A DNA stretch of 64,000 bases from Treponema primitia ZAS-2 (GTDB lineage Bacteria; Spirochaetota; Spirochaetia; Treponematales; Breznakiellaceae): NCBI RefSeq assembly GCF_000214375.1, contig NC_015578.1:2480001-2544000 (forward strand). Direction: 5' to 3'. The notes beneath the pieces are model-generated. The model saw only the letters and a program-made list of their open reading frames with translations. It ran no database searches and was not told where the DNA came from. Positions 22,142 to 61,740 of the stretch are shown here, piece after piece (the first letter of the stretch is position 1; every line of letters begins with the position of its first letter). The position numbers were made by a program, and so were the translations under genes.

Positions 22142-23075
22142 AGGACCAGCGGTTTTCGACGCCGGGCTTTTTTTCAATAAGCGCAACAAAAGCGCCGCTG
22201 CCACTTGCAGGGAACTCTCTGACTAAAGTCGGTGTTGCACGGGAAACTTCGTTGCAAGAAGTGCAAAAAACAGCCACCGCAGTTTCCGGGCCGGAAACCG
22301 GGTTTCCCCCCAGGAGCGCGTCCAGGGGTTTCCCATGGGCCATGTTCCGGGCAACGGCTTCGTCCACGGTGATACAGGGGATACCCAGGGCCTGAAAAGT
22401 TTCAGGACTGACTGGATGCAGGGCACCGGCCAGATCCGGGGAATCCGGGGAAACTGCGTCGGCCAGGGCAAAGCCCCCCACGGCGGTCCGCTCCAGGGAA
22501 ACCAGGTGGGCCCGGGAACCTGCGGCCAGGGCCAGGTCCCGGGCCAGGGAACGGATATAGGTCCCCTTGGAACAGTGGACATAGATATGGGCCAGGGGAG
22601 GCTCGTAGGAGCGGAGTTCCAGAGCGTGGATAGTCACAGGGCGCTGTTTCATTTCCGGGACCGCACCGGATCGGGCCAGTTCGTGGGCACGTTTCCCTTC
22701 TATATGAATAGCCGAATAGGCCGGGGGCGCCTGGAGTATGTCCCCCCGGAACTGGTCCAGGACCGCTTCAAGCTCAGCCTGCGAAGGGACCGGGCCCTCA
22801 GCCACAACGGCGCCTTCGGGGTCCAGGGTATCGGTTTCAAGGCCGAACTTGATGAACGCCTCATAGCGTTTATCACAACGGTCAAACCAGGGGGTGAGCT
22901 TCAGGGCCCGACCCGAGAGGACCACCAGGAGCCCGGAGGCAAATTTGTCCAGGGTCCCGGTATGGCCCACTTTTCCTGTGCCGAGGGCTTTTTTTATAAT
23001 TCTGAGGGAGTCAAAAGAGGTCAGGCCAGGCTTTTTGCACAACAATAGTAACCCGTTAGTATTACTGTCCGTCAT
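22116..23075 (-). CDS. truB: tRNA pseudouridine-55 synthase TruB
   Basis: 319 residues. The catalytic motif is GHTGTLDKFASGLL (Asp of GTLD), followed by KRYEAFIKFGLETDTLDPEG and CSKGTYIRSLARDLA. It isomerises U55 in the T-loop of tRNAs. The C-terminal region near residues 260-300 contains one interrupted and one complete copy of the 24-bp repeat found elsewhere in the window. There it reads SCNEVSRATPTLVREFPASG, so the tail is probably an insertion rather than conserved TruB sequence. The ATG at 23075 is chosen; a GTG at 23087 is possible. Confidence 0.95.
   Translation of the reverse strand: MTDSNTNGLLLLCKKPGLTSFDSLRIIKKALGTGKVGHTGTLDKFASGLLVVLSGRALKLTPWFDRCDKRYEAFIKFGLETDTLDPEGAVVAEGPVPSQAELEAVLDQFRGDILQAPPAYSAIHIEGKRAHELARSGAVPEMKQRPVTIHALELRSYEPPLAHIYVHCSKGTYIRSLARDLALAAGSRAHLVSLERTAVGGFALADAVSPDSPDLAGALHPVSPETFQALGIPCITVDEAVARNMAHGKPLDALLGGNPVSGPETAVAVFCTSCNEVSRATPTLVREFPASGSGAFVALIEKKPGVENRWSYGYVNAGA
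22204..22258. repeat. 24-bp dispersed repeat, two copies, one interrupted, inside truB
   Basis: A unit split by a 14-15 base palindromic piece (CTGACTAAAGTCGG) is followed by a unit ending CGTTGCAAG. In frame with truB. The same arrangement recurs at 36981-37058. Confidence 0.7.
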
Positions 23076-23436
23076 TCGGTGTTTCACTGTTAGTATTCAC
23101 CAGGCTGTCAATTTTCTGTACTAGTTCAAAACCTTCCCGTATCCCCTGGTCCTCGTGGAAACGGAGCCGGGGTGTATGGCGTATGTGCATCATAGCTGCC
23201 AGCTGGGACTGGATAAACCCGGCGGCGCTCTGCAAGCCCTCAACCCCGGTTGCCAGGCCCGCGGACTTATAACTGGAAACGTAGCAATCGGCGTAGGAAA
23301 GGTCCCGGGACACCGCAACCCTGGTAATGGAGAGAAAGGTATCCACCCTGGGGTCTTTAACCTTTCCCTCCACAATGAGACTTCCTATTTTTTCCTGGAT
23401 AAGCCGCCCTACCCGCTCTGTTCTATATTCTGCCAT
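23062..23436 (-). CDS. rbfA: Ribosome-binding factor A
   Basis: 124 residues, usual RbfA length. Diagnostic parts are RTERVGRLIQEKIGSLIVEG near the N-terminus, then VAVSRDLSYADCYVSSY, and MHIRHTPRLRFHED near the end. It is a KH-fold factor acting on 16S rRNA during late 30S maturation and cold adaptation. It starts 5 bases after infB and overlaps truB, in the classical infB-rbfA-truB order. Confidence 0.95.
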   Translation of the reverse strand: MAEYRTERVGRLIQEKIGSLIVEGKVKDPRVDTFLSITRVAVSRDLSYADCYVSSYKSAGLATGVEGLQSAAGFIQSQLAAMMHIRHTPRLRFHEDQGIREGFELVQKIDSLVNTNSETPNDGQ

Positions 23437-23441
23437 CTCTT

Positions 23442-26261
23442 TTAATTACTGGAAAGCTTTCGCGCCACTTCCACTATTTCAAAGACCTCAAACTGGTCCC
23501 CGACCTGGATGGCGTCAAAGCCCTCAAGGCCAATACCGCATTCGTAGCCTGCGGCAACTTCCCGGGCGTCATCCTTGAAGCGCCTGAGGGAGGCGAGCTT
23601 GCCGGTAAAAATAACGATTTCGTCCCGGATAACATTGGCGCTGGCGCTCCGCTTGACTGTGCCGGTGAGGACATAGCAGCCGGCGATGGTGCCGATCTTG
23701 GGGACCTTGAAGGTTTCCCGAACTTCCACCGAGGCGATGATCTCTTCCTTGGTATCCGGCTTGAGCATCCCCTCCATGGCCAGCTGGATTTCTTCCACCG
23801 CCTTGTAGATGATGTTGTAGCGCCTGATATCCACCTTTTCCTGATCCGCCAGCATCTTTGCCTTGGGCACGGGCCGCACATTGAAGCCGATGATGATGGC
23901 GTTTGAGGCGATGGCCAGGTCCACGTCCCCTTCGTTGATGGCCCCCGGGAGGGCCTGGATGACATTGAGCCGCACTTCCTTGTTGGACAGTTTTTCTAAG
24001 CTTGCCCTGAGAGCCTCAGCGGAACCCTGGACATCGCTCTTGATAATGATCTTCAGTTCCTGGATAGCCCCGGCATTAATGGTGTCCGAAAGGTTGTCCA
24101 GGGTGATCTTCCTGACGTTTTTAGCGTCCTCAAAGCGTTTCAGTTCGTGGCGCTTGGAGGAAATGCCCCGGGCCACTTTTTCGTCTTCCACCACCTGGAG
24201 GGGGTCTCCGGCGTCGGGAACGCCCTCAAAGCCCAGGACTTCCACGGGCATGGCGGGGGTGGCCTCATCGACCTTCTTGCCCTTATCGTCAAAGAGGGCG
24301 CGGACCTTGCCGGGCCAGACCCCGGCCACAAAGGAATCGCCGATCCTGAGGGTGCCTTTTTCGATCATCACCGTGGCTACAACACCCCGGCCATGGTCGA
24401 TCCGGGATTCCAGGACCTTTCCTTCGGCGCTGTGATTGTAATTTGCCTTGAGATCCAGTATTTCTGCTTGCAGTAAAATTGCGTCGATCAGTTTGTCGAT
24501 GCCCTCTTTCCGCAGGGCTGAAAGTTCCACAAACATGGTCTGACCGCCCCAGTCTTCGGGCATGAGCCCCAGATCCGAGAGCTGGCTCTTTACCCGGTCC
24601 GGGTTGGCCTCGGGCTTGTCCATCTTGTTGACCGCCACGATGATGGGAACCTTGGCGTCCTTGGCGTGGTTGATGGCCTCAATGGTCTGAGGCATAACCC
24701 CGTCATCGGCGGCCACCACTAATACTACGATGTCCGTTACCTGGGCGCCGCGGGCCCGCATGTGGGTAAAGGCCTCATGGCCCGGGGTGTCCAGAAAGGC
24801 GATGCGCCCCTTTGGGGTATCCACCGTATAGGCCCCGATATGCTGGGTAATGCCGCCGAACTCACCGGAAACCACATCGGCGCTGCGTATGGCATCCAGA
24901 AGTTTTGTCTTTCCGTGATCCACGTGGCCCATCACGGTAACTACCGGGGACCGTGGGCTCATGGAAGCTTCATCGTCAGCTTCAGTGGTGATTAACGTTT
25001 CGTCATAGAGGCTGACTATCTTCACGTCCGCCCCAAATTCCGCCGCCAATATGGTTGCGGTTTCCGCATCTATCTGCTGGTTGATGGAAACCATCATGCC
25101 CATGCTCATCAATTTGTGGATCAGATCAGAAGCCTTGAGGTTCATCTTTTTGGCAAGCTCGGAAACCGATATCACTTCCATAATATCAATGGATTTGGGT
25201 ACCGGGTTGGCTATCTGGGCGATCTTCTTTTTGGTCTGGAGGAGTTTTTCCTCCATTTCCTGTTCCTTCCGCTGGTAAACGGTTCTCTTGACCTTAAAGG
25301 ACTTCTTGATCGGCCCTTTACCTTCGCCCAGGGGAGAAGGGGAGCTTGTGCTGCCGCCGGGCCGGGGCCTGCCGGGGCCGCCGGGCCCTCCAGGCCGGGG
25401 ACCGCCGGGACCGCGATTGGGGCCAAAACCGCCGGGTCTGCCGCCGCCGCCCATGCCAGGGCGGGGAGGACCGTTAAAGGGACGGGGGGGACCATTGTAG
25501 GGAGGACGGGGGCCTCCGCCGCTGTTGTTATAAGGACGGGGACCCTGGCCTCCGGGACTATCAGGAGGACGGCTGTTACCCACAGGTCTGCCGCCGACCC
25601 TGCCGGCTGCTCCGGTGGGTCTTTGGGGGAAGGGGGAACCACCGGGCCTGCCCTGGGGGCCTTCGCTCCGGTAGGTTCGGGGGGGGGGCGGGCCTACGGG
25701 CCGGCCGCCGACCCTGCCGGCAGCAGCCACCGGCCGCTGGGTAATGGGCAGGGAACTGACCCGGTTTTCTCCGGGTTTTACCCCTGCCGGAGCTTTGGTT
25801 TCTCCTGCCGCTGGGGGCGCAGGAGTTTCTTGAACCGGAGTTTCCACTTGCGCGGGAAACTTCGTTGCACTTTGAGGCTTTGCATGCGGTGACGCCGCCC
25901 CAGATACAGGCGCAGGCGGGGCTGAAGCCGGTACTTCCGACGGAGCTTCCTTTAGCACGGCAGCAGCCTTTGCAACAGGGGATGAAACTGTAACAGCCCC
26001 CTCCCCTTCGGGGCTTACATTTCGGGAAGCGACCACGATCTTTGGCTGAGGTTTCTTCGCAGGTCCCGGAGCAGGGGCAGCAGGAGGGGCGGGTTTTTTC
26101 TTGACCACCACCACCTTACGGCGAGCGCTCTCTTTGAGCGCCTGGTCGCTATGTTCCTGAACAGGACTCTTAGCCTTCCCCTCCGAAGACTCAGGCTCAC
26201 TTTTTTGATGCTTAATGAGCTCTACCTTTGGTTTTTGTGTAGCGTCTAATTCCTCAGCCAT
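23442..26261 (-). CDS. infB: Translation initiation factor IF-2
   Basis: 939 residues from the ATG at 26261, which has AGGTGG a few bases upstream; the frame extends 27 codons further but without support. The N-terminal 380 residues are low complexity: first Lys/Ala/Pro-rich, then Gly/Pro/Arg-rich ([19 protein letters not shown]). The conserved core has an IF2-N domain ([20 protein letters not shown]) and G motifs [27 protein letters not shown] and NKMDKPEA. Domains II, III and C2 follow. It places initiator tRNA on the 30S subunit. The variable N-terminus near residues 130-145 includes one copy of the dispersed 24-bp repeat ([11 protein letters not shown]). Confidence 0.97.
25850..25872. repeat. 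24-bp dispersed repeat, single copy inside infB
   Basis: Left half GCGCGGGAAACT and right half TCGTTGCACTT on the + strand. In frame within the variable IF-2 N-terminus, read on the complementary strand as ATKFPAQV. Confidence 0.65.
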
Positions 26262-26322
26262 GATCCACCTTTGTTCCGTTATTCCATTCGTGGGGTACAA
26301 TACCCCGCTACTGCGGGGTTCT

Positions 26323-27870: not shown

Positions 27871-27874
27871 GAGC

Positions 27875-28384: not shown

Positions 28385-28415
28385 ACATCAACCTTTTTGA
28401 AATCCGAAAAATCTG

Positions 28416-28442: not shown

Positions 28443-28473
28443 TTTTTAGATGAATTTTCCGAATGTCCTAGTT

Positions 28474-28614: not shown

Positions 28615-29591
28615 CTACCCTATACTTACCACCTCTTCCAGGGAAAGCCCCATAGCCGCGGCAATTTGTTCATCCGGAAGCCCCAGGGCTTTAAAATTTC
28701 GTATCGACTGGCGCATCACTTCCCGGTTGCGTTTTTCCGATTCCCGGTTGCGTTTTTCCGATTCCCGGTTACGCTTTTCTGCTTCCTCGGCACGCTGTTC
28801 CGCTTCCTCGGCATGAATTCTCAGTTCCTCAAGATACTTATGCTCCCTGAGCATTTCGTCAAAATCTATCATGAATTTTACCTCCTCATATTCTTCATAA
28901 CCCTTGTACAACTCGGTAAACAAACGGCCCATAAGCTTTCCGGCCTCGGCCGCATCTCCCGGCACAATATCTCCCGCTTGCTGCGCCCGGTCTATGGCCT
29001 CCACTATCTCAGCGTGTAACGCGGGCAATTCCCGGAACAGTTCTTTCCGCCGCTCCAGCGTACGGGCCGTAGCTATCTGTTTCCGCAGCTTCAGGGCGTG
29101 CATGGGCAGCAGGATGACCATGTGCAGTACTGTACATGAGCATCCCGGTCCGGAAACTTGAATACCGATACCTCAAAATCATAATACGCCTCTTTTGTAA
29201 ATTGCAAGCGAATTTTTATCAGGTCCGGGGTTCGACGGCTGGTCTCCCAGTAGATTACCCGGACCTGAGGAAAGGTCAGGGTGAGCAGAGTCTCCCTGGC
29301 GGAATATTCCGCCCCTTCCAGGGCATACCGGAAGATCCGGGTAGCAATGTGCATGTCGTCGCCTATCTGTGTTTCGATAAGGTAGCTGTCCTTACCGATA
29401 GTGACGATCAGGTCCGAGACGGTTTTGCTTAATCCGGCGCCGACCTTTTCGGTTTCCAGGTAACTCACCGGGCTGTCCAGGGGGTGGTTGGTTCCGAAAA
29501 GACCGTTGATTACATTGATAACCGCCCTATTTGAGAGATGCATAAGAAACTTGAACGATCGATCAAAGATATCGTGTGTGGTTCTATCCAT
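28615..29591 (-). pseudogene. Rpn/YhgA-like PD-(D/E)XK nuclease, frameshifted
   Basis: Two adjacent frames make up one family member. The 5' part (ATG at 29591, GGAGG 6-7 bases upstream) encodes the nuclease domain: DIFDRSFKFLMHLSNRAVI and DSYLIETQIGDDMHIATRIFRYA. The 3' part (28615-29121) continues with TVLHMVILLPMHALKLRKQI, a helical region and a charged coiled coil. The frame has to shift by -1 (or +2) near 29125-29135 to join them. Whether this is a mutation, a sequencing error or recoding is open. Such genes occur in many variable copies in some bacteria. The tail holds a 21-bp tandem repeat coding SEKRNRE. Confidence 0.8.
28720..28782. repeat. 21-bp tandem repeat, three copies
   Basis: Units at 28720-28740, 28741-28761 and 28762-28782; the first two are identical, the third differs at several bases. 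They encode SEKRNRE heptads of the coiled-coil tail of the Rpn-family protein. Confidence 0.9.
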
Positions 29592-34682: not shown

Positions 34683-36178
34683 CAGTGGCCCCTCCGGGAG
34701 CTGTTTTCCGTTACTTGCAACGTAGTCTCCCGCGCTACTTGCAACGTAGTTTCCCGCGCTACTTGCAACGAAGTTTCCCGCGCAAATTGCAACGAAGTTT
34801 CCCGCGCAGCATTGGTGATCACCGTACTCAGGGGCAGCCGTGAAGGGCAAACCAGTTCACAACAGCCGCAGCCGTGACATTTACCCGCCGACGACTCCAG
34901 TAGTTTTACCGGATCAGAAGAAGGAAAACGGACAGATATTTCATCCTGATCATCTTTCATCTCCAGGGAAACCCCGACGGCCTTAAAAAGTTCCTCCGGG
35001 TCCAAGCCCACAGGGCACACGGCCCGGCATTCCCCGCAGCTGATACAGCTCCCTGAGCGGCTTCCCCCTGTCTGGCCTTCCAGCAGGGCAAATATGGCGT
35101 AGCTGGTTTTGATAACCGGCTCATCCAGGTCCGTCACGGTGCGGCCCAACAGGGGGGAGCCTGAGGCTATCCGTTTCGGTTTGTCAATAAAGCCGCCGCA
35201 TTCGTCAAAGAGTTCCCCCATACGGGTGCCGATTCGTACCTTCATCACCTGGGGATGGACCACTGCGGATCCGCCTACTGCAATATACCGGTCCAGAATG
35301 GGTTTTTTCAGTTTGACCGCATCGTAAATCGCCGCCAGGGTAGCCGGCCCCAGGGGCAGGATGGAACCCAGTTCAAAATTTTCTTTCTTGGCATACATGC
35401 GGAGAACCATTTCTAGTTCCCGCCGGTTTCGTTGGGGATACCGGGAACCCACCAGGGCAACCGATGCGGGGATATCATAGGAAGCCGCTTCCGCAAGGAA
35501 CAATTCCCCCAGTTCCCGTTCCTTCCGGGAAATCGCATAAATGATGCGATCCGCCTTTCCCGCCTTGCCCGCAATGACGCTGCCCTCCACCACTACCTTG
35601 AGCCGTTCCTTGCAGAGCACATAATCTGCCGCAAGCCAAGGATCATCAAATACGCAGTTGACCACCAGGGCATGGGGCTCCTCCAGGGCGCAAAAAACTG
35701 ACAGGAGTTCCGACACCGAAAGGCCGGACCCTTCCATCTCCACCACCCCATATTCTGCAATAAGCCCCTGGAGTTCCCGGGGGGACAGGCCTTCCCAGGG
35801 ATACTCCTCCTCCCGGCGGCCCAGTTTATCAAAGGCCCCTTCCAGGCGTATTACCAGGGCGTCATTGGGGTACCCTTCGAGCATATCCCAGGAAACGGTA
35901 CGCACCACCCTACCCGGCACGGTGGCGTGGACATTTGCCAAACCCGCTCCCCCCTGGCCGATAAGCATCCCCTCTTTAACCAAATCCCCGCTTTTCACCA
36001 CCGGTACAGCCCGGCCTCCGGAAGAAACTACACCGGAAGTTCCGGTTTGCTGAACCAGGGGTATGATGGACAGGGCCGGCAGAAAGGCGGTTACACTGGC
36101 ATCCCGGGAAGGGGCAAAGGGATCCTCATAATGAATCCCCCCCCGGGGGAATGAATAGACTCGTTGTTTTCCTATCAT
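34682..36178 (-). CDS. RnfC-like iron-sulfur protein with altered flavin/NADH site
   Basis: 498 residues. The N-terminal barrel-sandwich is RnfC-like (VVKSGDLVKEGMLIGQGG; VHATVPGRVVRTV). Two 4Fe-4S sites are intact: CISCGECRAVCPVG near residue 375 and CHGCGCCELVCPS near residue 440. The RnfC flavin/NADH signature (GGAGFPTHVK and ECEPYLTAD) is replaced by EMEGSGLSVSELL and VFDDPWLAADY. The protein could thus pass electrons without reacting with NADH. The last 35 residues are a four-fold repeat (ARETSLQF, ARETSLQV, ARETTLQV twice) coded by the dispersed 24-bp repeat. The start overlaps the upstream gene by four bases. Confidence 0.82.
   Translation of the reverse strand: MIGKQRVYSFPRGGIHYEDPFAPSRDASVTAFLPALSIIPLVQQTGTSGVVSSGGRAVPVVKSGDLVKEGMLIGQGGAGLANVHATVPGRVVRTVSWDMLEGYPNDALVIRLEGAFDKLGRREEEYPWEGLSPRELQGLIAEYGVVEMEGSGLSVSELLSVFCALEEPHALVVNCVFDDPWLAADYVLCKERLKVVVEGSVIAGKAGKADRIIYAISRKERELGELFLAEAASYDIPASVALVGSRYPQRNRRELEMVLRMYAKKENFELGSILPLGPATLAAIYDAVKLKKPILDRYIAVGGSAVVHPQVMKVRIGTRMGELFDECGGFIDKPKRIASGSPLLGRTVTDLDEPVIKTSYAIFALLEGQTGGSRSGSCISCGECRAVCPVGLDPEELFKAVGVSLEMKDDQDEISVRFPSSDPVKLLESSAGKCHGCGCCELVCPSRLPLSTVITNAARETSLQFARETSLQVARETTLQVARETTLQVTENSSRRGH
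34713..34808. repeat. 24-bp dispersed repeat, four tandem copies at the 3' end of the rnfC-like gene
   Basis: Units at 34713-34736, 34737-34760, 34761-34784 and 34785-34808 differ by only a few bases. Read on the minus strand each starts GCGCGGGA and contains CGTTGCAA, encoding AREtsLQv octapeptides. Confidence 0.92.
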
Positions 36179-37764
36179 GCGGCGATCCGTTTATCCATAT
36201 ATTTTGAAAGTTTACCCCTTGTACTATGCCCCCGCCGGTCCCAAAAAATCAGGGGAATGCAGAGGCCCAGGCCAATCAGGGCTGAAAACAGATCCCCATG
36301 ACCGGATCCTCCTGGGACACCCCCGGCAGGAGAAACCATTCCACCATCAGTATAGGAGTAATGGTCAAGAAAATCTATCAGTCCCTCCAGGGGGAAGGGG
36401 GGAATCGCGTCCACCGAAGAAGCCACAGTTTCGCCGAAAACAAGAGTTTCGGGAAGACCGGCGATGAGCCCGTCCGTCCCAAGGGAATAGCGCCCATACC
36501 CGGAGCCCTGGCCCGGAGCTGTATTATACAGGGGGAGGAAGGAGAATTGGCTTTGAAACTCCCCATGCTTCCGGTAAATCTCGGCATTGATATTCCGCCG
36601 AGTATCCCAATCCCTTCCCCGCCCCAGGCTTGTACCAGCCGACGAGGCATTGAAAAGGGGCCCCAAAAACAGCAAGGCCAGGGAAGCCAGGGCAAAGGGG
36701 AACAGTATTCGGGAATATAATGGCGGTTTAAGGGCAATATCCGTAATCTGAACCGGAAGAAACCGTATGTGTCCCTGGTTTGCCCCGCGATTCGATTCGC
36801 TCCAGAGGGAAAGCCCCAGGAGGAACAGGAAAAAAACTGTTTCAAGAAGAAAAATGAGAGGCCCAAGCCCCCCTAAAATGGCAATAGCCCCGCAGGCCCC
36901 CAGGAATACCGCACCAAGTACCCAGAAATCCCTAAAGTAATTGAATAATTTCCTGAGGGAGGCCGGGCTGGAACCCCCCTGCGCGGGAAACTCCGTTGCA
37001 AGTGGCGCGGGGAACTTGCCGACTGAAGTCGGGCCGACTTCAGTCGGCGTTGCAAGTGCCGCCTTTTCATAACGCCGGGAGATAAAATATTCCCGAACCG
37101 GTTCCCCCAGCAGCCGTGAAAGTGCGGCCTGGGCTGCAATGAGGGCAAACCCAGGAACCCCCATCCCCGCCAGGACTGCCCAGAGGGGGAGGAAAAGGGC
37201 GGTAATCAGGGGAGCCGCCGAAAAGAACAGGGTAATGGCCGCAGCAACCAGGAAAAGAAGGGCCGGTAACAATAGGGAGCGGGGGGCTGTAAGGACTTCA
37301 AGGGAAAAGGGGATGTTTTTTAAAGCCGCCCCGACCCGGTCCTCCATACCCAGTCTGAGGGGGATAAAGAGCCGCCGTTTCCCCCGGGAAACAAAAAAGG
37401 AACGAAGCTTTTCCGCATACCCGTCATCCCGGGGATCAAAGGGCTCCACCCGGTCCCTATAAGCTTCCAGGGGCACCTTCTCCATTTCCCCAAAATCGTC
37501 CAGCAGCACCCACTGGGTGGATTCCCCGATGGAATCCCTTACCCCCTGGCCTTCCAGCAGATCCCGGATAAGGCTGTCCGGGTAGGAAGCGTCCAGACTA
37601 AGCAGGGCATAGGCCTTTCCTGACCCCCCGATGCTTCGCGGCACTTCCCGCGTTCCGGTTAAAGCCGGCGCTGTCTGGGGCACGCCATAGTTTATGAGAA
37701 AGAACAAACCCCCAAGAATCAGAGAGACTGCCATTGAAAGTACAAGCGATTTTAGAAAAGACAT
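36175..37764 (-). CDS. Large membrane protein of the Rnf-like cluster, unknown function
   Basis: 529 residues. One N-terminal helix (LVLSMAVSLILGGLFFLINY), then a soluble domain of about 120 residues. Four or five helices follow in the middle (LLLPALLFLVAAAITLFFSA and onward), then a periplasmic or cytoplasmic loop and further helices up to the tail FSALIGLGLCIPLIFW. No domain is recognised and it is not RnfB: there is no ferredoxin cysteine motif. It is translationally coupled to the rnfC-like gene (ATGA overlap), suggesting a subunit specific to this cluster. Residues 235-270 come from the dispersed repeat with a palindromic insert. Confidence 0.6.
   Translation of the reverse strand: MSFLKSLVLSMAVSLILGGLFFLINYGVPQTAPALTGTREVPRSIGGSGKAYALLSLDASYPDSLIRDLLEGQGVRDSIGESTQWVLLDDFGEMEKVPLEAYRDRVEPFDPRDDGYAEKLRSFFVSRGKRRLFIPLRLGMEDRVGAALKNIPFSLEVLTAPRSLLLPALLFLVAAAITLFFSAAPLITALFLPLWAVLAGMGVPGFALIAAQAALSRLLGEPVREYFISRRYEKAALATPTEVGPTSVGKFPAPLATEFPAQGGSSPASLRKLFNYFRDFWVLGAVFLGACGAIAILGGLGPLIFLLETVFFLFLLGLSLWSESNRGANQGHIRFLPVQITDIALKPPLYSRILFPFALASLALLFLGPLFNASSAGTSLGRGRDWDTRRNINAEIYRKHGEFQSQFSFLPLYNTAPGQGSGYGRYSLGTDGLIAGLPETLVFGETVASSVDAIPPFPLEGLIDFLDHYSYTDGGMVSPAGGVPGGSGHGDLFSALIGLGLCIPLIFWDRRGHSTRGKLSKYMDKRIAA
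36981..37058. repeat. 24-bp dispersed repeat, two copies, one with a 30-bp palindromic insert
   Basis: A complete unit lies at 36981-37004. The second unit (37005-37058) is split after 12 bases by two 15-base pieces, GCCGACTGAAGTCGG and GCCGACTTCAGTCGG. Total insert is 30 bases, so frame is kept. Confidence 0.85.
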
Positions 37765-43841: not shown

Positions 43842-45602
43842 ATGAAAAAAAGTATTGCTGCGGCATTGGTGCTTTTTGGACTAACAGGGATACTGTCGGC
43901 CCAGGATTTTGATTATGCTTGGGACGACCTTGACTATGACTGGGACACGGAAATAGAGGAACCCCCGGATTTTGTAGACCCCTACGCCCCCGCCACTCAG
44001 GTGCCAACTCAGGCAGCTCCGGCCCCTTCCCCGGCCCCCATGCAAACTGCGCCCGCCCCGGCAGCAGCGCCTCCCGCACCGGTTGCGCCATCCCCGCCCC
44101 CCAGACAAGCGGCGCCCTCCCCTGCTGCACCGGCTCCGATAGCGGCGCCAACCCAGGCCCAGGATTTTGATTATGCCTGGGACGACTCTGAATATGACTG
44201 GAACATGGTAATAGAGGAGCCCCCGGATTTTGTTGACCCCTACGCCCCCGCCACGCCAACCCCGGTTGCTCCCGCCACACCGGCGCCTGCTCCCACCCCT
44301 CAGGCGCCCGCTCAGCTTGCTCCCGCTCCGGTTACGCCCCCCGCAACGCCGCCGTTTGATCCGGCCCCCGCTCCCAGACAGGCCTCCCCTACCCAGTCTG
44401 CCCCATCGCCGGTTTTTGCGGAACCCGCGGATAGGCCGACCCCTGTACCGGCGTATATTCCGGCGGAACCGGACCAGCCTACACTCCGGGGAAAGTTTTA
44501 TACCCTGGTGTATGACGGGGATGAGAAAGACGCAGCATTACTATTAGATGAATTTGAACAGCGTTTCAATATCTATACCCAGCTCTTCCATTTTGACCCG
44601 GCCGCCATAACCGGCCCCCTGTTGATCAGGGCCATTGGGGATAATGCAGCCTACGAAGACTATGTAAACACCAAGCTGCATATGGTACCGGAAGGGGCGG
44701 TATATATCCACTACAACCAGGAAACCAAGCGGGAACTGGTGATTAACCGAGCGGCGTTCAATGGAGCCTCGGACTCCGGGGATACCTTGCAGACCTTTCT
44801 TGCCCACCAGGCCTTTATCCAGTACCTCAGGGCCTTTATCCCCCGCCCGCCCGCCTGGATGCGGGAAGGGTTCGGGATTTTTTTCAGCACCCTGAAATTC
44901 GATCCCGCAACAAAGCTGTTAAAGTTTGATGAAAACCTTTCCTGGCTGGACATGGTAAAAAGCTTAGGCGACCAGGCTCCGGAACCGAAGACCCTGCTCC
45001 TGGCGGATACCGGAGAATATCCCCCTGAAATAACAGGCCCCTTCCAGGCCGCCTCCTGGGCCTTGGCTTCCTTCCTGGTGAATAACAGTGATGAAAACTA
45101 TTTCCGCACCCTGGCCGAAGTCTTCATGGTCCTTTCCCCCACAGCCGGGGCCGGTGAGAATGCCCAGGCGGTGGAAAAGCGGCTGACCCTCTGGACCGGC
45201 TACGACACCTTTGCTGCGGACTACCGGAATTATCTTGCTTCCCGCAAAACCCTGACAGAACTGTTAGTCGCCGGGCAGAAAGCCTATTCCTCCGGAGACC
45301 GTAAAGCTGCGGAGCTAAATTTTACTGAAGCCCGGGCAATAAAGGAGGACCAAGGCGTTCCCTGCTACTACCTGGGACTTTTGGCCTATAATGACAGGGA
45401 CTTCGCAAAGGCCGGAGAGCTGTTCAATGCCGCCCTGGAATACGGCGTTGACCCGGCCTTGGTCCGCTACGCCCTGGGGCTCAACGCAATATCCGCAGGC
45501 CGCAATGCCGAAGGCATAGGCTGGCTGGAACAGGCGGCGGAAGCAGCGCCGGACCGGTACAGAGAAAAGACAGGGAAACTAATCGGACAGCTGCGGCCTT
45601 AG
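43842..45602 (+). CDS. Exported Pro/Ala-rich protein with degenerate peptidase-like and TPR regions
   Basis: 586 residues from the ATG at 43842 (GGGAGG upstream); signal peptide cleaved after LTGILSA. Two nearly identical acidic segments (DFDYAWDDLDYDWDTEIEEP and its copy, about 90 residues apart) are separated by Pro/Ala-rich linkers. Residues 230-410 resemble a peptidase MA (gluzincin) domain, ending in PPAWMREGFGIFF. The zinc motif HExxH is replaced by HQAFIQ, so catalysis is unlikely. TPR-like helices fill the last 110 residues (AYSSGDRKAAELNFTEARAI). Probably a periplasmic or surface scaffold. Confidence 0.72.
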   Translation: MKKSIAAALVLFGLTGILSAQDFDYAWDDLDYDWDTEIEEPPDFVDPYAPATQVPTQAAPAPSPAPMQTAPAPAAAPPAPVAPSPPPRQAAPSPAAPAPIAAPTQAQDFDYAWDDSEYDWNMVIEEPPDFVDPYAPATPTPVAPATPAPAPTPQAPAQLAPAPVTPPATPPFDPAPAPRQASPTQSAPSPVFAEPADRPTPVPAYIPAEPDQPTLRGKFYTLVYDGDEKDAALLLDEFEQRFNIYTQLFHFDPAAITGPLLIRAIGDNAAYEDYVNTKLHMVPEGAVYIHYNQETKRELVINRAAFNGASDSGDTLQTFLAHQAFIQYLRAFIPRPPAWMREGFGIFFSTLKFDPATKLLKFDENLSWLDMVKSLGDQAPEPKTLLLADTGEYPPEITGPFQAASWALASFLVNNSDENYFRTLAEVFMVLSPTAGAGENAQAVEKRLTLWTGYDTFAADYRNYLASRKTLTELLVAGQKAYSSGDRKAAELNFTEARAIKEDQGVPCYYLGLLAYNDRDFAKAGELFNAALEYGVDPALVRYALGLNAISAGRNAEGIGWLEQAAEAAPDRYREKTGKLIGQLRP

Positions 45603-48192: not shown

Positions 48193-49446
48193 ATGGCAAT
48201 GGGTGAAATCTTTACTTCTCTGGTCGAACATATAAGCTCAGGCGGAGCGGGTGTCCTGAATTTCCAGGGAAAACGGGTTTTTATGGATTTTACCGCCCCC
48301 GGGGACCTGGCTGTAGGGCGGATTATAGAAGACAAGCGCAGTTGGGCCCGGGCGGAACTCCTGGAACTGTCCGAGGCTTCACCGCTCAGGGCCAGCCCGG
48401 CCTGCCCCCTCTACGGAACCTGCGGGGGCTGCTCCCTCCAGCACCTGAACTATAAGACCCAGGTCGCGGAAAAGGCGCTCATACTTCAGGACGCCTTCAA
48501 GCACATCGGGGGTATTACCCTACCACCTGCTTTCGACTTTATCCCCTCCCCGCCCTGGAACTACCGGAACCGGATGCAATTGCATTGTATTCTCCAAAAT
48601 CGCCCTCAGGCAAAAAATCACCGGGCCGGGACACATTCCGGACTACTTGCAACGCAGTTCCCCGCGCCTCTTGCAACGCAGTTCCCCGCGCAAAACCGGT
48701 TGGGCTTTATGGGCCGGAAAAGCGGCGATATCATCCCGGTTGACCGCTGCCCGGTGGCCGATCCGGGGATAGCTTCGGCCTTGCAGGAAGGCGCCATCCT
48801 TCCGCCCCCGGCAAAGGACCGGTTTACCGTCTTTTCATTTGAAACCACCCTTTTGAGCGAAGGAACTATCCGGGGAAAGGCCCAAAGCCGGGGCACGGTA
48901 ACCCTGCTGGGAAAGGAACTGCGCATGGACGCCGGGGTGTTTTTCCAGAGCAACTGCGGCATGTTGGAACGGCTCATTGGGGATCTGGCCCAAATCGCCG
49001 GTACAACAGACCGGACCCTTCCCATGGCGGACCTGTACTGCGGGGTGGGTACCTTCGCAGCCTTCCTGGGGGAACAATTCCCCCGTATCGATCTGGTGGA
49101 GGAAAACCCCGAGGCCATAGTCCTGGCCCGGGAAAATATTCGCGGCCAGGATGGGCGGCTATTCGCCCAAACTGGTGATCTCTGGGCAAAGGGCTGTACC
49201 ATGGACAGCAGCTACGGCTTCATGGTGGCGGACCCGCCCCGGCAGGGCCTGTCCCCGGCACTGCGCCGGGCCCTGGCCGAAAAAGGCCCACCGGTACTGG
49301 CCTACGTTTCCTGCGATCCCGGAACCCTGGCCCGGGACTGCGGGGAATTATTAGCCGGGGGGTACCGGCTGGAAATGCTGCGGGGCTACGATTTCTACCC
49401 CCAGACTGCGCACATTGAAAGCCTGGCGGTGTTTAGGAAGGGATGA
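48193..49446 (+). CDS. RlmD/TrmA-family 23S rRNA or tRNA m5U methyltransferase
   Basis: 417 residues. An N-terminal TRAM-like domain is followed by the iron-sulfur motif CPLYGTCGGCSLQHL. SAM-binding motifs are FQSNCGMLERLI, DLYCGVGTFAAFLGE and VEENPEA. The catalytic region is VADPPRQGLSPALR and AYVSCDPGTLARD (nucleophilic Cys). It makes 5-methyluridine in 23S rRNA or tRNA; which target is not clear. Residues about 150-167 (LLATQFPAPLATQFPA) are two copies of the dispersed 24-bp repeat, inserted between the Fe-S and catalytic domains. Confidence 0.92.
   Translation: MAMGEIFTSLVEHISSGGAGVLNFQGKRVFMDFTAPGDLAVGRIIEDKRSWARAELLELSEASPLRASPACPLYGTCGGCSLQHLNYKTQVAEKALILQDAFKHIGGITLPPAFDFIPSPPWNYRNRMQLHCILQNRPQAKNHRAGTHSGLLATQFPAPLATQFPAQNRLGFMGRKSGDIIPVDRCPVADPGIASALQEGAILPPPAKDRFTVFSFETTLLSEGTIRGKAQSRGTVTLLGKELRMDAGVFFQSNCGMLERLIGDLAQIAGTTDRTLPMADLYCGVGTFAAFLGEQFPRIDLVEENPEAIVLARENIRGQDGRLFAQTGDLWAKGCTMDSSYGFMVADPPRQGLSPALRRALAEKGPPVLAYVSCDPGTLARDCGELLAGGYRLEMLRGYDFYPQTAHIESLAVFRKG
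48645..48692. repeat. 24-bp dispersed repeat, two tandem copies inside the methyltransferase gene
   Basis: Units 48645-48668 and 48669-48692, each containing TTGCAACGCAGTTCCCCGCG. In frame, encoding LATQFPAP and LATQFPAQ. Confidence 0.92.
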
Positions 49447-50813
49447 TACTTAAAAAATTTCCGGTTTCAAGCGTTTTCCTCTGGCTGCTAATTATGGCCG
49501 GCTGCGCAACCACCATCCCGGTGGAGGTAACCCGGCTTCCCACCCTGGATACTGGCGGCATTGAGCGGCTTGCGGTGGAACCCTTTGACCCCGGCGAAAC
49601 CGGGGCGGCTCAAATTGCCCGGGACTTAACCAACCTGATAAATGAGGCGGTTCTTGCTACAAAAGTATTTACCCTGGTTTCCTGGGAAGAATTTAGTAGG
49701 GTCCGAAATTCCGCGGGAAGCTACGCTGGAAGTTCCGCGGGAAGCTACGCTGGAAGTTCCGCGGGAAGCTACGCTGGAAGTTCTGGGGGCAGTATCGCTA
49801 ACTTTGCGGATGCGGTCATTTCAGGGGAACTCACCAGGTATGAAGCAGCGGTGAATACCCGGCAGGATGAACGGGTAAATGCCCGCGGGCTGAGCTATAA
49901 GGTAACCCAGTACAAGCAGGAACTAACCCTGAGCTATGTTTTCAGGCTGACCCGGACCCGGGATGGGTCCGTTATCGGCCAGATTAGCCGGGAAGGTTCC
50001 GATGAGGGTGTTTGGGAAGATTCAAGGAATAAGGTTCCCCATGAACGGGATGTGGCAAGGTCGATTATCGCGGATCTAACAAAAACCCTGGGCAAGGATA
50101 TTGCCCCCTGGAAGGAAAAAGAAAACAGGACCCTGGAAAAGGATAAGGCCCGGGACCCCCGGATGAAGGAAGCCAATTCCCAGGCTAAGGCCCGCCATTA
50201 CCGTTCCGCCTTTACTATCTATAAAGAAGTTTACCAAGACTCAGGCAACTTTGCCGCCGGATTTAACGCGGCGATCCTTGCAGAAGCCCTGGGGAATCAC
50301 GGGGAAGCCCTTGAGCTGATGGGCCGGCTTGTGAAAGAGACAGGAAACCCCAGGGCGGGAACGGAACTGGAGCGGATGAAAAGGACCCTGGCTGAAGCCC
50401 GGGAGGCGGAGGAAAAGTTTAACTCCCCCTTGGTGGGAGGACCGACAACCAACGCTATCAGAAAGGTATTGGAGGCTTTGCAAACCCAGCTTCCCTGGAA
50501 CAGCACTATTGCTGTTCTGAACACCGATTCCGCCGACCAGCAGCTCAGCGACTATATCGTTGAAGAGCTGAGCGCCGGATTAGCCAGGACCGTGGGGTTA
50601 ACCATGGCGGATCGCGGGAAGCTCAGTCTGCGCCGGGCGGAACATCCCGGGGAACTCAGCGATGAAGCGGCTATCTCCATCGGCAGGATGCTTGGCTGCC
50701 GGATAGTGATCACCTGCGCGCTAGTCGGGTCCGGCAACCAGCGCCGCCTACTGGTCAAAACCTTCGTGGTTGAAACCGGGGCCCTGACATACCAGGCTTC
50801 GGAAGAAATTTAG
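49443..50813 (+). CDS. Lipoprotein with LpoB/CsgG-like domain
   Basis: 456 residues. The lipobox is LIMAGC at residue 19. The first 200 residues (GGIERLAVEPFDPGETGAAQ; KVFTLVSWEEF) resemble a CsgG/LpoB-like fold, interrupted by the Ser/Gly/Tyr repeat. A helical, TPR-like segment lies at 235-315. A second LpoB-like unit follows (STIAVLNTDSADQQLSDYIV; LAISIG-type helix; CRIVITCALVGSGN). Such proteins act at the envelope, in LpoB's case by activating peptidoglycan synthases. The repeat encodes AGSYAGSS three times, near residues 91-114. The ATG overlaps the methyltransferase stop by four bases. Confidence 0.72.
   Translation: MILKKFPVSSVFLWLLIMAGCATTIPVEVTRLPTLDTGGIERLAVEPFDPGETGAAQIARDLTNLINEAVLATKVFTLVSWEEFSRVRNSAGSYAGSSAGSYAGSSAGSYAGSSGGSIANFADAVISGELTRYEAAVNTRQDERVNARGLSYKVTQYKQELTLSYVFRLTRTRDGSVIGQISREGSDEGVWEDSRNKVPHERDVARSIIADLTKTLGKDIAPWKEKENRTLEKDKARDPRMKEANSQAKARHYRSAFTIYKEVYQDSGNFAAGFNAAILAEALGNHGEALELMGRLVKETGNPRAGTELERMKRTLAEAREAEEKFNSPLVGGPTTNAIRKVLEALQTQLPWNSTIAVLNTDSADQQLSDYIVEELSAGLARTVGLTMADRGKLSLRRAEHPGELSDEAAISIGRMLGCRIVITCALVGSGNQRRLLVKTFVVETGALTYQASEEI
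49711..49782. repeat. 24-bp dispersed repeat, three perfect tandem copies inside the lipoprotein gene
   Basis: Three identical units start at 49711, 49735 and 49759. Left half CCGCGGGAAGCT and right half ACGCTGGAAGTT. They encode SAGSYAGS cycles and keep the frame. Confidence 0.95.
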
Positions 50814-54170: not shown

Positions 54171-54191
54171 AGGCCGCCCTTGATAACGGTC

Positions 54192-55153: not shown

Positions 55154-55162
55154 CAGAAAGCC

Positions 55163-55693: not shown

Positions 55694-55756
55694 TTGTATT
55701 TTTTGGAAATGTGGTAAATAATATTACTATATTAGTATATTTTGATCAGGGTTAAG

Positions 55757-58339: not shown

Positions 58340-58415
58340 GAAATCTGTTTGAAAAGAACAGGTCCAGGCTCTGACGGTAAATCTTCCCCCGTATCTCCCC
58401 GCCTAAAACTGACCC

Positions 58416-58444
58416 TTGCAAAACCAGGCATCCCCCTTTATAGT
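58416..58444 (+). promoter_or_regulatory. Promoter of prs
   Basis: TTGCAA (58416-58421), 17-base spacer, TATAGT (58439-58444). Transcription would begin near 58451, about 20 bases before the prs ATG. Confidence 0.65.
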
Positions 58445-58470
58445 AGTCCTATGAAAGCGGGGTACCCAAA

Positions 58471-59571
58471 ATGGTGAATGAATTTGTCATAGCCGCCACC
58501 CGGTCTATGAAAAAGTACGCCGCCAAAGTTGTGGAGGATTTGGCAAAATTTCCCAGTTTTGCCTCCCATGCGGATTCAATTAACGGCGTCCAGGCCCTAA
58601 AAACGGACCTGTTTGCCGACGGGGAAATGGAAGTTTCGGTCAAGGAATCCCTCCGGGGCAGGGATGTGGTCCTCTTTACCAACTGCGCCAGAAATGAAGC
58701 GGGTATCGGGGTTGAAGAAGCAAAGATAGAGCTGTACCACACCATAGACGCCCTGAAACGGTCCCAGGCGGAACGGATCATCGTGTTTGAGCCCTTTGTA
58801 TCCTGTTCCCGGTCGGACCGGACCACCCGCCGCAGTTCCGTGGGCCTCTGGGTGCACTTCAAGATGCTGGCAACCCTGGGGACCAACCATATTATCACCT
58901 ACCAGCTCCATTCGGACAAATCCCGGTCCATGCTGGACCCCACGATCTGCCTTATTGATGATATGCCTGCCCTGACCTTACTCAAGAAGTACCTCTGCGA
59001 TAACTATATCCGGGATTTGCAAACCCTCCAGGGGGAGGTGCGCAACAACTGGGCCTTCTGTTCCGTGGACGCCGGGGGGGAAAAACTGGGCCGGCAGTTT
59101 GCCAATGCCTTTATGGCGCCCCTAGTGGTGGCCCACAAGCAGCGGGATTATTCCAAGTCCAATACCATTGAATCGATCAATATCCTTTCGGCAGAACCCA
59201 TTGCAGGGAAGGTGCTATGGATAGTAGACGACATGGTGGACACCGCCGGCTCCGTAGTCAGCCTCATCAGAGCCCTTACGCCCTTTAAGCCCGCTGAAAT
59301 CAACATCATTTCTACCCACGCCGTATTCTCCCCCCCTGCGGGGGAACGGCTTTCCGCACTTTTTGAGGAAGGGCTGCTGAAACATATTATTGTTACCGAC
59401 ACGGTGTACAAGGGCCAGGAAAAAATTCCCAACCTGGAAGTGGTTCCCTCCACGAGCCTTTCCGCCAAGGTAATCAGTACCATTATTACAGATAGTTCCT
59501 TGAGCAAATTGATGGATCCCTTTAATGCAGAGGCTTATTTCAAGGCGCCATATCTGTTTAATCAGAGTTAG
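58471..59571 (+). CDS. prs: Ribose-phosphate pyrophosphokinase family protein
   Basis: 366 residues, longer than the usual 315. The PRPP-binding loop is VDDMVDTAGSVVSLIRAL; the catalytic flap region reads RSDRTTRRSSVG, diverged from the standard YARQDRK form. DAGGEKLGRQFANAF matches the family DxGG motif. It makes PRPP from ribose 5-phosphate and ATP for nucleotide, His and Trp synthesis. The divergence suggests a class II-like or spirochaete variant. GGGG lies about 10 bases before the ATG. Confidence 0.88.
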   Translation: MVNEFVIAATRSMKKYAAKVVEDLAKFPSFASHADSINGVQALKTDLFADGEMEVSVKESLRGRDVVLFTNCARNEAGIGVEEAKIELYHTIDALKRSQAERIIVFEPFVSCSRSDRTTRRSSVGLWVHFKMLATLGTNHIITYQLHSDKSRSMLDPTICLIDDMPALTLLKKYLCDNYIRDLQTLQGEVRNNWAFCSVDAGGEKLGRQFANAFMAPLVVAHKQRDYSKSNTIESINILSAEPIAGKVLWIVDDMVDTAGSVVSLIRALTPFKPAEINIISTHAVFSPPAGERLSALFEEGLLKHIIVTDTVYKGQEKIPNLEVVPSTSLSAKVISTIITDSSLSKLMDPFNAEAYFKAPYLFNQS

Positions 59572-59581
59572 AAAATTCTTC

Positions 59582-60712
59582 TTATTGTCGGCCGTTGCCC
59601 AGGGAGGATGCCTGGTGAAGGGCGATCCCTTCCAGGCGTATGTCCTCTTCCCCGCCGGGCAGGGACACGGGGATTACCCGGCCCAGGACTTCCAGGGGCC
59701 GCTCCAGGTTGAGGGGCGCCGCAAAATCAAATACCACCGGGACCCTTCCTTCCAGAGTGGTGCGGGTGTCGTATCCTACCAATAGTTCAAAGCTCATGCC
59801 GTTTTCCCGTTCGTCCAGGTTGGCGGCCATTCCCCGCCAGATTACATAACAGTTCCGGTACAGCGCCGGGTCCTTGAGTACTTCCAAATATGGATACCGA
59901 TCCTTGAGGGTGTCAAAGCCGGGAACATCCATATATGAAAGGAGCAGCCGGGCCTTGTTTTTGACCCCATCGGAAGCGTTGGATTCTATGAGCCGGTTCA
60001 GGGAAAGCTTGGCCGCCTCGTCCCGGTAGGCGGTAAACAATTTGCGTGCCTCTTCGTAGGTATCCAGGACCTGGTTCCGGGTCAGAATATACCGGTAACT
60101 GCCCCCTGGTTGGACCGGCGTTTCCCGGTCCTCGGATTCCAGGCTTATGCCCTCATAGCCGCTCCGTTCGGTTTCCGCAGCTTTGCCCAGGGGAATGACC
60201 TGCAATTTCACCAGCAGGCCACCGATCAGAACCAGGGTGAGCAGTATTCCTGCGATGGGGGCAATGATGCTGCCCAGGGTAGGGGGCAATTCCGGGAGGG
60301 GCGGGAAGAGGGAGGCGGGTTTTCCCGAATCAATCCAGCCCTGGAGAGCATCGGTGCCGCTGTACTTCCGCAGCACCCCCAGGGCTTTTTTGGCGATCCG
60401 GTTCCGGGGCTCCAGGTCCTGCACTTCCAGGTAGAGGTCCACCGCCTTCTCGGTCTCGCCCCGGTGGAGGTGGTAGAGCGCCATGCCCAGCAGGGCCGGG
60501 GGTTCCAGCATCTTGATCTCCCTGGCCCGCTTAAAGTAGGTAAAGCCCCCGCCCAGGTCCCCCGCCCGCAGGCATGCGCCCCCCAAAATCAGGTAATAGG
60601 TGTACGAATCGTGGTACCGGACCACTTCGGGCTGGAGCAGGGAAATGGCATCCCCGTATTTTCCCCGCTTGACCATACGTACCGCCTTGGTCAGGGTAGG
60701 TTCGAGTTTCAT
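59582..60712 (-). CDS. Membrane-anchored TPR protein
   Basis: 376 residues from the ATG at 60712; a GTG at 60721 is possible. N-terminal TPR-like helices (YTYYLILGGACLRAGDLGGG; LLGMALYHLHRGETEKAVDL) are followed by one helix (LGSIIAPIAGILLTLVLIGG) near residue 160. A second domain follows (IETNRLIESNASDGV-like helices, then beta-rich C-terminus). No catalytic motif. It is presumably an envelope protein, downstream of another TPR protein and overlapped closely with it. Confidence 0.68.
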   Translation of the reverse strand: MKLEPTLTKAVRMVKRGKYGDAISLLQPEVVRYHDSYTYYLILGGACLRAGDLGGGFTYFKRAREIKMLEPPALLGMALYHLHRGETEKAVDLYLEVQDLEPRNRIAKKALGVLRKYSGTDALQGWIDSGKPASLFPPLPELPPTLGSIIAPIAGILLTLVLIGGLLVKLQVIPLGKAAETERSGYEGISLESEDRETPVQPGGSYRYILTRNQVLDTYEEARKLFTAYRDEAAKLSLNRLIESNASDGVKNKARLLLSYMDVPGFDTLKDRYPYLEVLKDPALYRNCYVIWRGMAANLDERENGMSFELLVGYDTRTTLEGRVPVVFDFAAPLNLERPLEVLGRVIPVSLPGGEEDIRLEGIALHQASSLGNGRQ

Positions 60713-60717
60713 AAACT

Positions 60718-61740
60718 TCACTGGGCCCCCGGGGCGTTTCCGGAACTTTCGGCACCGACTTTAGTCGGCAAGCTCCCCGCGGAACTTCCAGCGGAGCTTC
60801 CCGCGGAAAGCTCATCGCGCAGCTTCTCCGCTGCGGCCTTCAACTCCCGGATGCGCCTGAGGCTTTCCACCTCTGGGGCAAACACGCTTTCCTGGATCGC
60901 CGGAGCAGTTTGCTGACCCAAAAGTCGGGTCTCCAAGTCCTTAATCCGCAAATCTGCATCCGCAAGAAGCCGCCGGTATTCGACGCTCACTTCCTCCGGA
61001 ATCCGGCTGGCAGTTTTCAATAAATCATCCACCTGCTGCTGGTATGCTTTGATAGTGTGATCATAGGCATCTTCGCGCTGTCGGTATTCCTCCACGGTTT
61101 TCAGGTACTCGTCGTAGCTCCATTTCAGCATGTCCAGAAGTTCTACTTGCATTTTATTTTGTTTGATCATGTCCAGACGGTAAGAGGCAGCTTCGTATTT
61201 TTCACTCCGAGGATTGGTGTTTACCACCCGGGTAAAGAGTATCCCCGCCCGGTCGATCTGGTTCAGGGCAAAAAAACATTCCCCCATCCAGTAGAAAACC
61301 AGGGATTTCCTGGCAAGCCCTTCCCGGGTTCCTGTATCGGTACGATCCAGGATATCCCCATAAGTCCTGAACAGGTTCAGCGCCTCATCGTAGCGGTTTT
61401 TATAATAGAGAATCCGTCCTTTATAATAGAGGATTGTATCAATCCTAAGCCCCACCGGGGCGATGCGCTGCAACTGGTCTATGTCCCTGAGGGATGCGTC
61501 ATATTCCCCCAGGGCAAATTCTGTCAGAGCGGTCCAGTACAGGATCTCCGCAAGCTGTCCGGGGTTAGCCGCCTCCATCTGGGAGCGGCGTAGTTCCAGG
61601 ACCGCTTCGCTCCACCTTCCCGCCCGGTACAGATTGATCCCCAGTTCCAGCCGGGAAGGGTAAACCTGAGCCGAACCCCACCCTATGCCCCATAAAAAGG
61701 CAAAACCGGCGAGAAAAAACAAAAATCGGCGGCGTTTCAT
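60718..61740 (-). CDS. Exported TPR/coiled-coil protein
   Basis: 340 residues from the ATG at 61740, with GAGGA 9 bases upstream; the ATG at 61749 is too close to it. The signal peptide spans FLFFLAGFAFLWGIGWGSA. TPR-like repeats occupy residues 25-210 (LAEILYWTALTEFALGEYDA). A charged coiled coil follows (YRRLLADADLRIKDLETRL). The last 30 residues (SAGSSAGSSAGSLPTKVG) are coded by the dispersed 24-bp repeat with a palindromic insert. It resembles YbgF/BamD-like envelope proteins only in outline. Confidence 0.72.
   Translation of the reverse strand: MKRRRFLFFLAGFAFLWGIGWGSAQVYPSRLELGINLYRAGRWSEAVLELRRSQMEAANPGQLAEILYWTALTEFALGEYDASLRDIDQLQRIAPVGLRIDTILYYKGRILYYKNRYDEALNLFRTYGDILDRTDTGTREGLARKSLVFYWMGECFFALNQIDRAGILFTRVVNTNPRSEKYEAASYRLDMIKQNKMQVELLDMLKWSYDEYLKTVEEYRQREDAYDHTIKAYQQQVDDLLKTASRIPEEVSVEYRRLLADADLRIKDLETRLLGQQTAPAIQESVFAPEVESLRRIRELKAAAEKLRDELSAGSSAGSSAGSLPTKVGAESSGNAPGAQ
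60743..60808. repeat. 24-bp dispersed repeat, about two copies, one with a 15-bp palindromic insert
   Basis: Coding-strand units begin CCGCGGGAAGCT and CCGCGGGGAGCT. The second is split by GCCGACTAAAGTCGG (15 bases). The first differs from the units at 49711-49782 by one base. Confidence 0.82.

Follow-up and report, generated by a model that had tools for sequence, protein, structure and literature searches.

A 24-nucleotide repeat lies in frame within seven protein genes of a 64,000-nucleotide stretch of the Treponema primitia ZAS-2 genome. This stretch (hereafter the window) comprises positions 2,480,001-2,544,000 of NC_015578.1, the one contig of 4,059,867 bases that was searched as the genome. 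The host genes are truB, infB, an rnfC-like gene, a gene for a 529-residue membrane protein, an RlmD/TrmA-type methyltransferase gene, an LpoB-like lipoprotein gene, and a gene for a tetratricopeptide repeat (TPR) protein. At up to three mismatches the window holds 13 matches to CGCGGGAARCTNCGYTGSAAGT, all spread over these genes: one each in truB, infB, the 529-residue gene and the TPR gene, two in the RlmD/TrmA-type gene, three in the LpoB-like gene, and four in the rnfC-like gene. The same scan of 100 dinucleotide shuffles of the window gave a mean of 0.02 matches and a maximum of 1. A preliminary description of this DNA had named the seven places, and at each of them the repeat is present, in frame, and adds no stop to the host open reading frame (ORF). 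The analysis described below indicates that the repeat is very probably a non-autonomous micro mobile element of 24 nt.

Two subfamilies of the 24-mer are recognized, A-type with the consensus GCGCGGGRAACTNCGTTGCAAGTN and B-type with the consensus CCGCGGGAAGCTNCGCTGGAAGTN; they differ at bases 1, 10, 16 and 19, and also at base 25, just 3' of the unit. The two halves of the 24-mer are alike, most clearly in the LpoB-like copies where a period of 12 was also scored, the full unit being 24 nt. Tandem Repeats Finder reported period-24 arrays at window positions 34712-34807, 48646-48691, and 49705-49783, and arrays in the sampled clusters contain up to five units. A second module, the palindrome CCGACTNNAGTCGG, is also found in truB, the 529-residue gene and the TPR gene (window positions 22219, with one mismatch, 37019, 37034, and 60755). 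The centre of the 24-mer (AACT.N.CGTTG) can be opened by 15-bp palindromic units consisting of CCGACTNNAGTCGG plus N, 15 again being a multiple of three, and up to three such units were found in one cluster.

Table 1. Copies of the repeat in the window (window positions; strand of the element) and genomic sites that are empty in relatives (contig positions).
Feature	Position	Strand	Remarks
truB composite: degenerate 24-mer remnant, palindrome at 22219-22232 (1 mismatch), 24-mer at 22237-22260	22200..22261	+	gene on - strand, residues 276-296
infB, one 24-mer	25850..25873	+	gene on - strand, residues 157-165
rnfC-like gene, four tandem 24-mers in C-terminal tail	34712..34807	-	residues 458-489 of 498
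529-residue membrane gene, 24-mer and second unit split by two 15-bp palindromic units	36981..37057	+	gene on - strand, residues 236-262
CCGACTNNAGTCGG palindrome pair, in tandem, inside second unit of 529-residue membrane gene	37019..37047	.	within 36981..37057
RlmD/TrmA-type methyltransferase gene, two tandem 24-mers	48644..48691	-	gene on + strand, residues 151-167
LpoB-like lipoprotein gene, three identical subfamily-B 24-mers	49711..49782	+	residues 90-114
TPR gene, subfamily-B 24-mer and palindrome-bearing unit in C-terminal tail	60753..60806	-	residues 315-333 of 343
RluD-like gene	676099		empty in 2/2 relatives aligned
HisRS-like gene	1484152		empty in 2/2 relatives aligned
M3 peptidase gene	3714520		empty in 3/3 relatives aligned
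Permease gene	3898059		empty in 2/3 relatives; G002 has its own extra insert

The repeat is abundant throughout the genome. With the reversed pattern as the control, an exact 22-mer with one free base was found in 23 copies (control 0), the exact degenerate pattern in 81 copies at 62 sites (39 plus and 42 minus; control 0), and the pattern with up to three mismatches in 172 copies (control 2). The whole-genome count, by which the preliminary description had proposed to check the repeat, is thus far above the control. The palindrome CCGACTNNAGTCGG is present at 49 sites (control 0), 34 of which, judged by a simple pattern test, have a context resembling the centre of the 24-mer. A profile run on 443 kb of this genome detected 133 units, and none in the reversed sequence. 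Phase counts, flank statistics and coding calls are based on an unevenly drawn sample of 129 clusters, made up of 100 of the 172 listed places, the palindrome sites, and the window; 27 of these clusters contain the palindrome and no 24-mer above threshold. Site classes are based on the complete list of 81 copies. Strand-biased insertion was considered and rejected: the shuffle test (p 0.0, 20,000 shuffles) had used the uneven 100-of-172 list, which lacked five minus-strand copies at 1.9-3.1 Mb, and the effect disappeared with all 81 copies.

Mobility is evident from sites that are empty in relatives. With the element removed, four genomes of the same genus were searched for the flanks of 12 sites, and the matches were aligned. 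At four sites (Table 1) relatives have exactly 24 bp less and their flanks align straight through, with ungapped identities around the junctions of 41/71 to 40/43. Each of the four is an exact 24-bp insertion with no deletion and no clean target duplication. The bases following the junctions (TGYGC, CCGG, GGGC, and GCCC) are already present in the relatives; the GCG-like bases on the right are therefore host DNA and not a copy made at insertion. A GCGC target duplication was rejected because its 5' copy is nearly invariant, and its 3' copy varies and, wherever an empty site could be read, belongs to the host. At 676099 and 3898059 the relatives also have the left-hand T. Across the sample, the left flank has T at -1 in 87% and a pyrimidine at -2 in 78% of 101 clusters, and the right flank of the last unit has G (79%) or C (14%) at +1, C at +2 (78%), G at +3 (73%), and C at +4 (59%) in 88 clusters, becoming nearly random beyond. 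Insertion thus took place mostly at T^SC (S = G or C), and no clean target duplication accompanied it. In G002 (locus L175), the orthologue of site 3898059 has about 18 bp extra where the permease gene here has the 24-mer.

Insertions missing from relatives were also seen elsewhere. The RelA/SpoT insert is absent in 7/7 relatives aligned, the PrmC insert is absent in 4/4 relatives with sequence on both sides, and the rnfC array is missing from G001, G003, and G032, where the tail itself has diverged. The truB site is empty in G003, has another insert in G001 and G002, and in G004 holds a degraded 24-mer (5 mismatches) in roughly this position; this insertion may be older, or the linker may have been hit repeatedly. 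The preliminary description would have been contradicted by the same peptides at the same place in distant orthologues; none were seen in the relatives aligned, G004 truB being a partial exception. The truB linker of G001 and G002 (L268/L261) contains a repeat-like stretch of the GCGGATTT...AATCCGTG type in place of the 24-mer composite. Downstream of RelA/SpoT (L118:4923-4966), a stretch CACAAAGGACACAAAG... matches nine further places in G002 and represents another dispersed repeat.

The remaining sites were less readable. In the first 12, phosphomannose isomerase (2620587) was ambiguous due to a variable linker in the relatives, TrpF (3958469) and aldolase (736718) gave partial alignments only, and 185305, 303550, 893582, 1219112, and 1674094 had no usable match across the junction in the four same-genus genomes. 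Thirteen further sites were searched and eight aligned, none base-exact. The rnfC array and the truB composite could be read as absent or different, and rlmD, 1739210, 3895299, 2315492, gatB, and 386227 were too diverged to read. Relatives matched infB and the TPR gene on one side only, none aligning across the infB copy, and no match was found for the 529-residue gene, the LpoB-like gene, or 217557.

The 62 sites of the complete list fall into 36 inside genes, 4 at the 3' part, 12 at the 5' part (several of them at or before the start), and 10 intergenic or uncertain, as classified by our own codon-usage score rather than by curated annotation. In the sample, 68 of the 129 clusters are in genes; 58 of these have a 24-mer, 31 running along the gene and 27 against it. 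All six phases are occupied, by 24, 13, and 6 units along the gene and 4, 22, and 6 units against it (75 in-gene units), so no single peptide is selected. The phases give unrelated peptides, the two commonest being of the ARGTSLQV type (24/75) and the LATKFPAQ type (22/75). The consensus is open in four phases for any choice of free bases; each of the other two contains a stop only if a particular base is A, namely base 24 (A-type) in one and base 13 in the other. The lengths of the element and of the palindromic unit, 24 and 15, are divisible by three, and together with the nearly stop-free consensus this would let genes tolerate the element.

Selection was assessed by coding calls made from the flanks only. 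In 47 clusters a single frame was called on both sides, and the element introduced a stop in none of them; with an expected stop chance of ~0.20 per frame, 0/47 would occur by chance at ~3e-5. Among the other clusters, four had different frames on one strand, one had opposite strands, and 77 had no strong coding signal on both sides. The phase-dependent base bias at positions 13 and 24 was discarded as evidence of selection because the class had been defined by lacking a stop; the flanks-only calls were used instead. It is thus shown indirectly that copies in genes are filtered by selection, none of those tested adding a stop. The preliminary description was right that the repeat is dispersed and in frame, that its peptides differ by orientation (and, as seen here, by phase), and that it propagates at the DNA or RNA level, not the peptide level. 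Its proposal of selection on DNA or RNA holds insofar as the peptide is not selected; it is better put that the DNA spreads, and that selection in genes removes copies creating a stop or shifting the frame. No benefit to the host was shown.

The preliminary description also placed the copies in linkers, tails or low-complexity parts. This does not hold as a general rule: the element falls in the middle third of 32 of the 57 complete host ORFs sampled, and a Pfam run on 40 host proteins located several copies inside matches, for example to SelA, tRNA-synt_His, the phosphomannose isomerase catalytic domain, DeoC, ABC_tran, and a BPD_transp_2 permease. Among the hosts that Pfam identified are RelA/SpoT, PrmC, SelA, a HisRS-like protein, a GatB-type protein, TrpF, an RluD-like synthase, phosphomannose isomerase, a penicillin-binding protein, and a NifH/nitrogenase-component-1 fusion; for the products of the 529-residue and LpoB-like genes, and for five other hosts, it gave no domain. 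The RlmD/TrmA-type insert falls within residues 132-166, a stretch unaligned against the best solved homologue. In a cysteine-desulfurase-like host the insert matches a gap relative to the best solved homologue, shortly before a GHK motif whose lysine presumably has a functional role. Two hosts have unusual architectures. One protein (L095:970-3168) joins a NifH-like domain (3-263) to a nitrogenase component 1 domain (306-712) and carries a 24-mer copy at residues 391-398. A GatB-type protein (L125:974-3520) runs into an asparaginase domain (516-687), with a composite element between its two GatB matches.

Related 24-mers occur in several other Treponema genomes. The exact degenerate pattern was found in 3 of 96 genomes in the set of relatives: this genome (81), G004 (2), and G032 (1). 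At up to three mismatches, the counts in ten chosen relatives (control in brackets) were 25 (1) in G004, 15 (0) in G032, 4 (0) in G002, 3 (1) in G020, 2 (0) in G001, 2 (3) in G003, 1 (0) in G025, 0 (1) in G018, and 0 (0) in G031 and G033; by number only G004 and G032 are clearly above the control. In a one-genome-per-species collection, from which records near this genome were possibly left out, the exact A-type pattern was found in two metagenome-assembled genomes (MAGs), both Treponema sp., with 127 and 14 copies at up to three mismatches (control 1 and 0). Many copies in the 127-copy MAG end in GCAAAA, not GCAAGT, and a 360-codon open frame at a contig start holds three copies in three phases. 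The palindrome CSGACTNNAGTCSG occurs 7-11 times in each of G001-G005 (control 0 to 2), three times in G020 (control 2), twice in G025 (control 2), and not in G032, G018, or G013. Of the 44 matches in G001-G005, 43 are CGGACTNNAGTCCG, with CGGACT/AGTCCG in place of the CCGACT/AGTCGG found here, which amounts to an exchanged base pair; 443 kb of this genome, in stretches partly chosen for the CCGACT form, contain only that form. The CGGACTNNAGTCCG copies of the relatives mostly lack the 24-mer, and some lie in genes or just before start codons (G001-G005, L212-L251). The element is real and lineage-restricted, and has moved since these species parted.

A mechanism can be proposed from these features. 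The moving form would be a short single-stranded RNA or DNA that an enzyme supplied in trans makes and inserts. Element bases 18-19 (GC or GG) would contribute to target choice by pairing with the two bases immediately following the cut (GC or CC), and arrays would grow by insertion beside the element's own GCGC, or by slippage. Base 19 is complementary to base 25 in 114/122 units here, 11/11 units in three loci of the two MAGs, and, for the units on hand, 7/9 in G004 and 5/6 in G032. With base 25 belonging to the host at four sites, this coupling may reflect target choice by pairing. The palindrome-bearing units fold somewhat better than shuffles (z -1.5 to -2.1). It is tentatively suggested that the element carries its own target guide, C19 with GC targets and G19 with CC targets, that it is among the smallest mobile elements known, and that it spreads single-stranded and in all phases across a termite-gut spirochaete clade. 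The termite gut is taken here to be the habitat of these treponemes, in part from the isolate names of the two MAGs.

In a special form of the mobile-element reading, reverse transcription of a small RNA into the target would be primed by the host 3' end CGC on the terminal GCG(C) of the RNA. This form is conceivable rather than likely. It predicts host GCG(C) after the element, with a likeness fading with distance, as is seen (79, 78, 73, 59%), and it predicts a sharp 5' end without target duplication. The A-type 24-mer lacks a strong RNA fold, which speaks against it. Movement through RNA has reportedly been proposed for the small dispersed repeats (SDRs) of Nostoc.

Several observations weigh against a micro mobile element or its proposed mechanism: i) the base-exact reading was obtained at only four of the 12 + 13 sites searched, and at 3898059 and 1484152 the aligner placed the gap some bases off and it was shifted to the element ends by eye; ii) the left base in the relatives is G at 1484152, and the T is ambiguous at 3714520; iii) the host origin of base 25 was seen at four sites, with C at one only; iv) the 19-25 rule fails in 3/5 units of G001-G003, and the pairing of base 10 with 16, which holds in 121/122 units here, fails in 3/9 units of G004; v) the coupling of bases 1, 19, and 25 largely follows the two subfamilies and may thus reflect few independent events; vi) the A-type 24-mer folds no better than shuffles (z 0.34 RNA, 0.29 DNA) and the B-type weakly better (z -1.5 RNA, -0.9 DNA); vii) there are no orientation blocks along the chromosome (81 copies, 32 runs in 63 clusters, p 0.54), giving no support to insertion tied to fork direction; viii) the relatives' palindrome mostly stands alone, so its kinship with the palindromic unit here is something we infer; and ix) no moving enzyme was identified among the Y1 genes examined, no search having been aimed at reverse transcriptases.

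The repeat might instead belong to the repetitive extragenic palindromic (REP) or REPIN type and be mobilized by a REP-associated Y1 (IS200/IS605-like) transposase whose gene lies at another place in the genome. Three PF01797 matches are present here and three in the copy-rich G004. The small size, the imperfect palindromy, and the absence of a clean target duplication would suit this class, whose members, like the 24-mer, are short and clustered, with palindromic parts and a species-specific consensus. Yet the seven Y1 loci inspected, of 1.7-3.3 kb each (all 3 here, 2/3 in G004, 1 in G001, and 1/9 in G013), contain neither the 24-mer nor the palindrome. G032, 99% complete, has 15 copies and no Y1 match; G002 and G003 also have no Y1 match, being 69% and 90% complete. 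As outlined in the available part of PMC3116915, REPs are mainly extragenic and occur beside REP-associated tyrosine transposase (RAYT) genes. Neither feature was found for the 24-mer, which is inside genes at 36/62 sites. This origin is considered improbable.

Two further explanations fare worse than mobility of the element. A motif favoured by point mutation and selection (an uptake signal, a Chi-like site, or a binding site), not mobile, would fit the many copies on both strands and the species-specific consensus; it is contradicted by the exact 24-bp length differences at four loci, and the tandem arrays of period 24 also argue against it, leaving it very little credence. Selection at the peptide level for a useful linker or tag, which the uneven phase use (24 and 22 of 75 in-gene units in the two commonest phases) might suggest, is the least credible of all, being contradicted for the family as a whole by six phases with unrelated peptides, by the 10/62 intergenic or uncertain sites, and by inserts missing from relatives at readable sites; a single locus could have gained a use for its peptide.

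Among known systems, the SDRs of Nostoc punctiforme are 21-27 nt long, have a high copy number and nested insertions, are confined to related species, and have no known mover. The 24-mer is like them in all these respects: a 24-nt unit, within the 20-30 nt range of an SDR-like repeat, is present in many dispersed copies, and mobility is seen at four empty sites. Conserved secondary structure with compensatory changes, another SDR trait, is hinted at by the palindromic unit; within the 24-mer, bases 10-16 and 19-25 are coupled, but the A-type has no folding advantage. Compared by properties and not by sequences, it differs in being mostly in protein genes, in its 24-bp tandem arrays, and in its T^SC insertion point. 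SDRs are mentioned by name in the available part of PMC3116915.

Rickettsia palindromic elements (RPEs), as described in the available part of PMC2229807, are 105-146 bp long, have 12-bp terminal inverted repeats, and make in-frame fusions, and in-frame coding palindromes are known from Rickettsia, Wolbachia, and Methanocaldococcus (PMC2996958, part available). The likeness to RPEs drawn in the preliminary description is borne out, since all of these, like the 24-mer, insert in frame in conserved protein genes and also occur between genes. At 24 bp, however, the repeat is four to six times shorter than an RPE, has neither such termini nor the long stem-loop, occupies six phases, and forms tandem arrays. 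PARCEL repeats are likewise palindromic and protein-coding, as presented in that part of PMC2996958, but encode one family of amphipathic peptides in contrast to the six unrelated peptides here; Treponema is not named in the main text of that paper. Terminal inverted repeats and target site duplications, which define classical miniature inverted-repeat transposable elements (MITEs), were not found; there is only a 4-bp likeness, GCGC/GCG(C), at the ends, the right one being host DNA at four sites. A literature search of titles and abstract beginnings, with most subscription papers outside its reach, found no such element described in treponemes. The unusual parts are the size, the use of all reading phases, the nested palindromic unit, and the target rule.

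The window contains two other repeats. A 21-bp unit with no relation to the 24-mer is repeated in tandem about three times at 28720-28786, and two 99-bp direct repeats, 91% identical and with starts 258 bp apart, lie at 43898-43996 and 44156-44254.

A 24-bp parasite can colonise protein genes genome-wide without closing their frames, through its length and a nearly stop-free sequence readable in every phase. The dozens of natural eight-residue insertions, some in conserved enzyme domains, constitute a test of where proteins tolerate insertion. Inserts of 24 bp may also mislead phylogenies built on spirochaete signature indels. If the organism is as identified here, the movement of micro repeats becomes testable in a cultivable bacterium.

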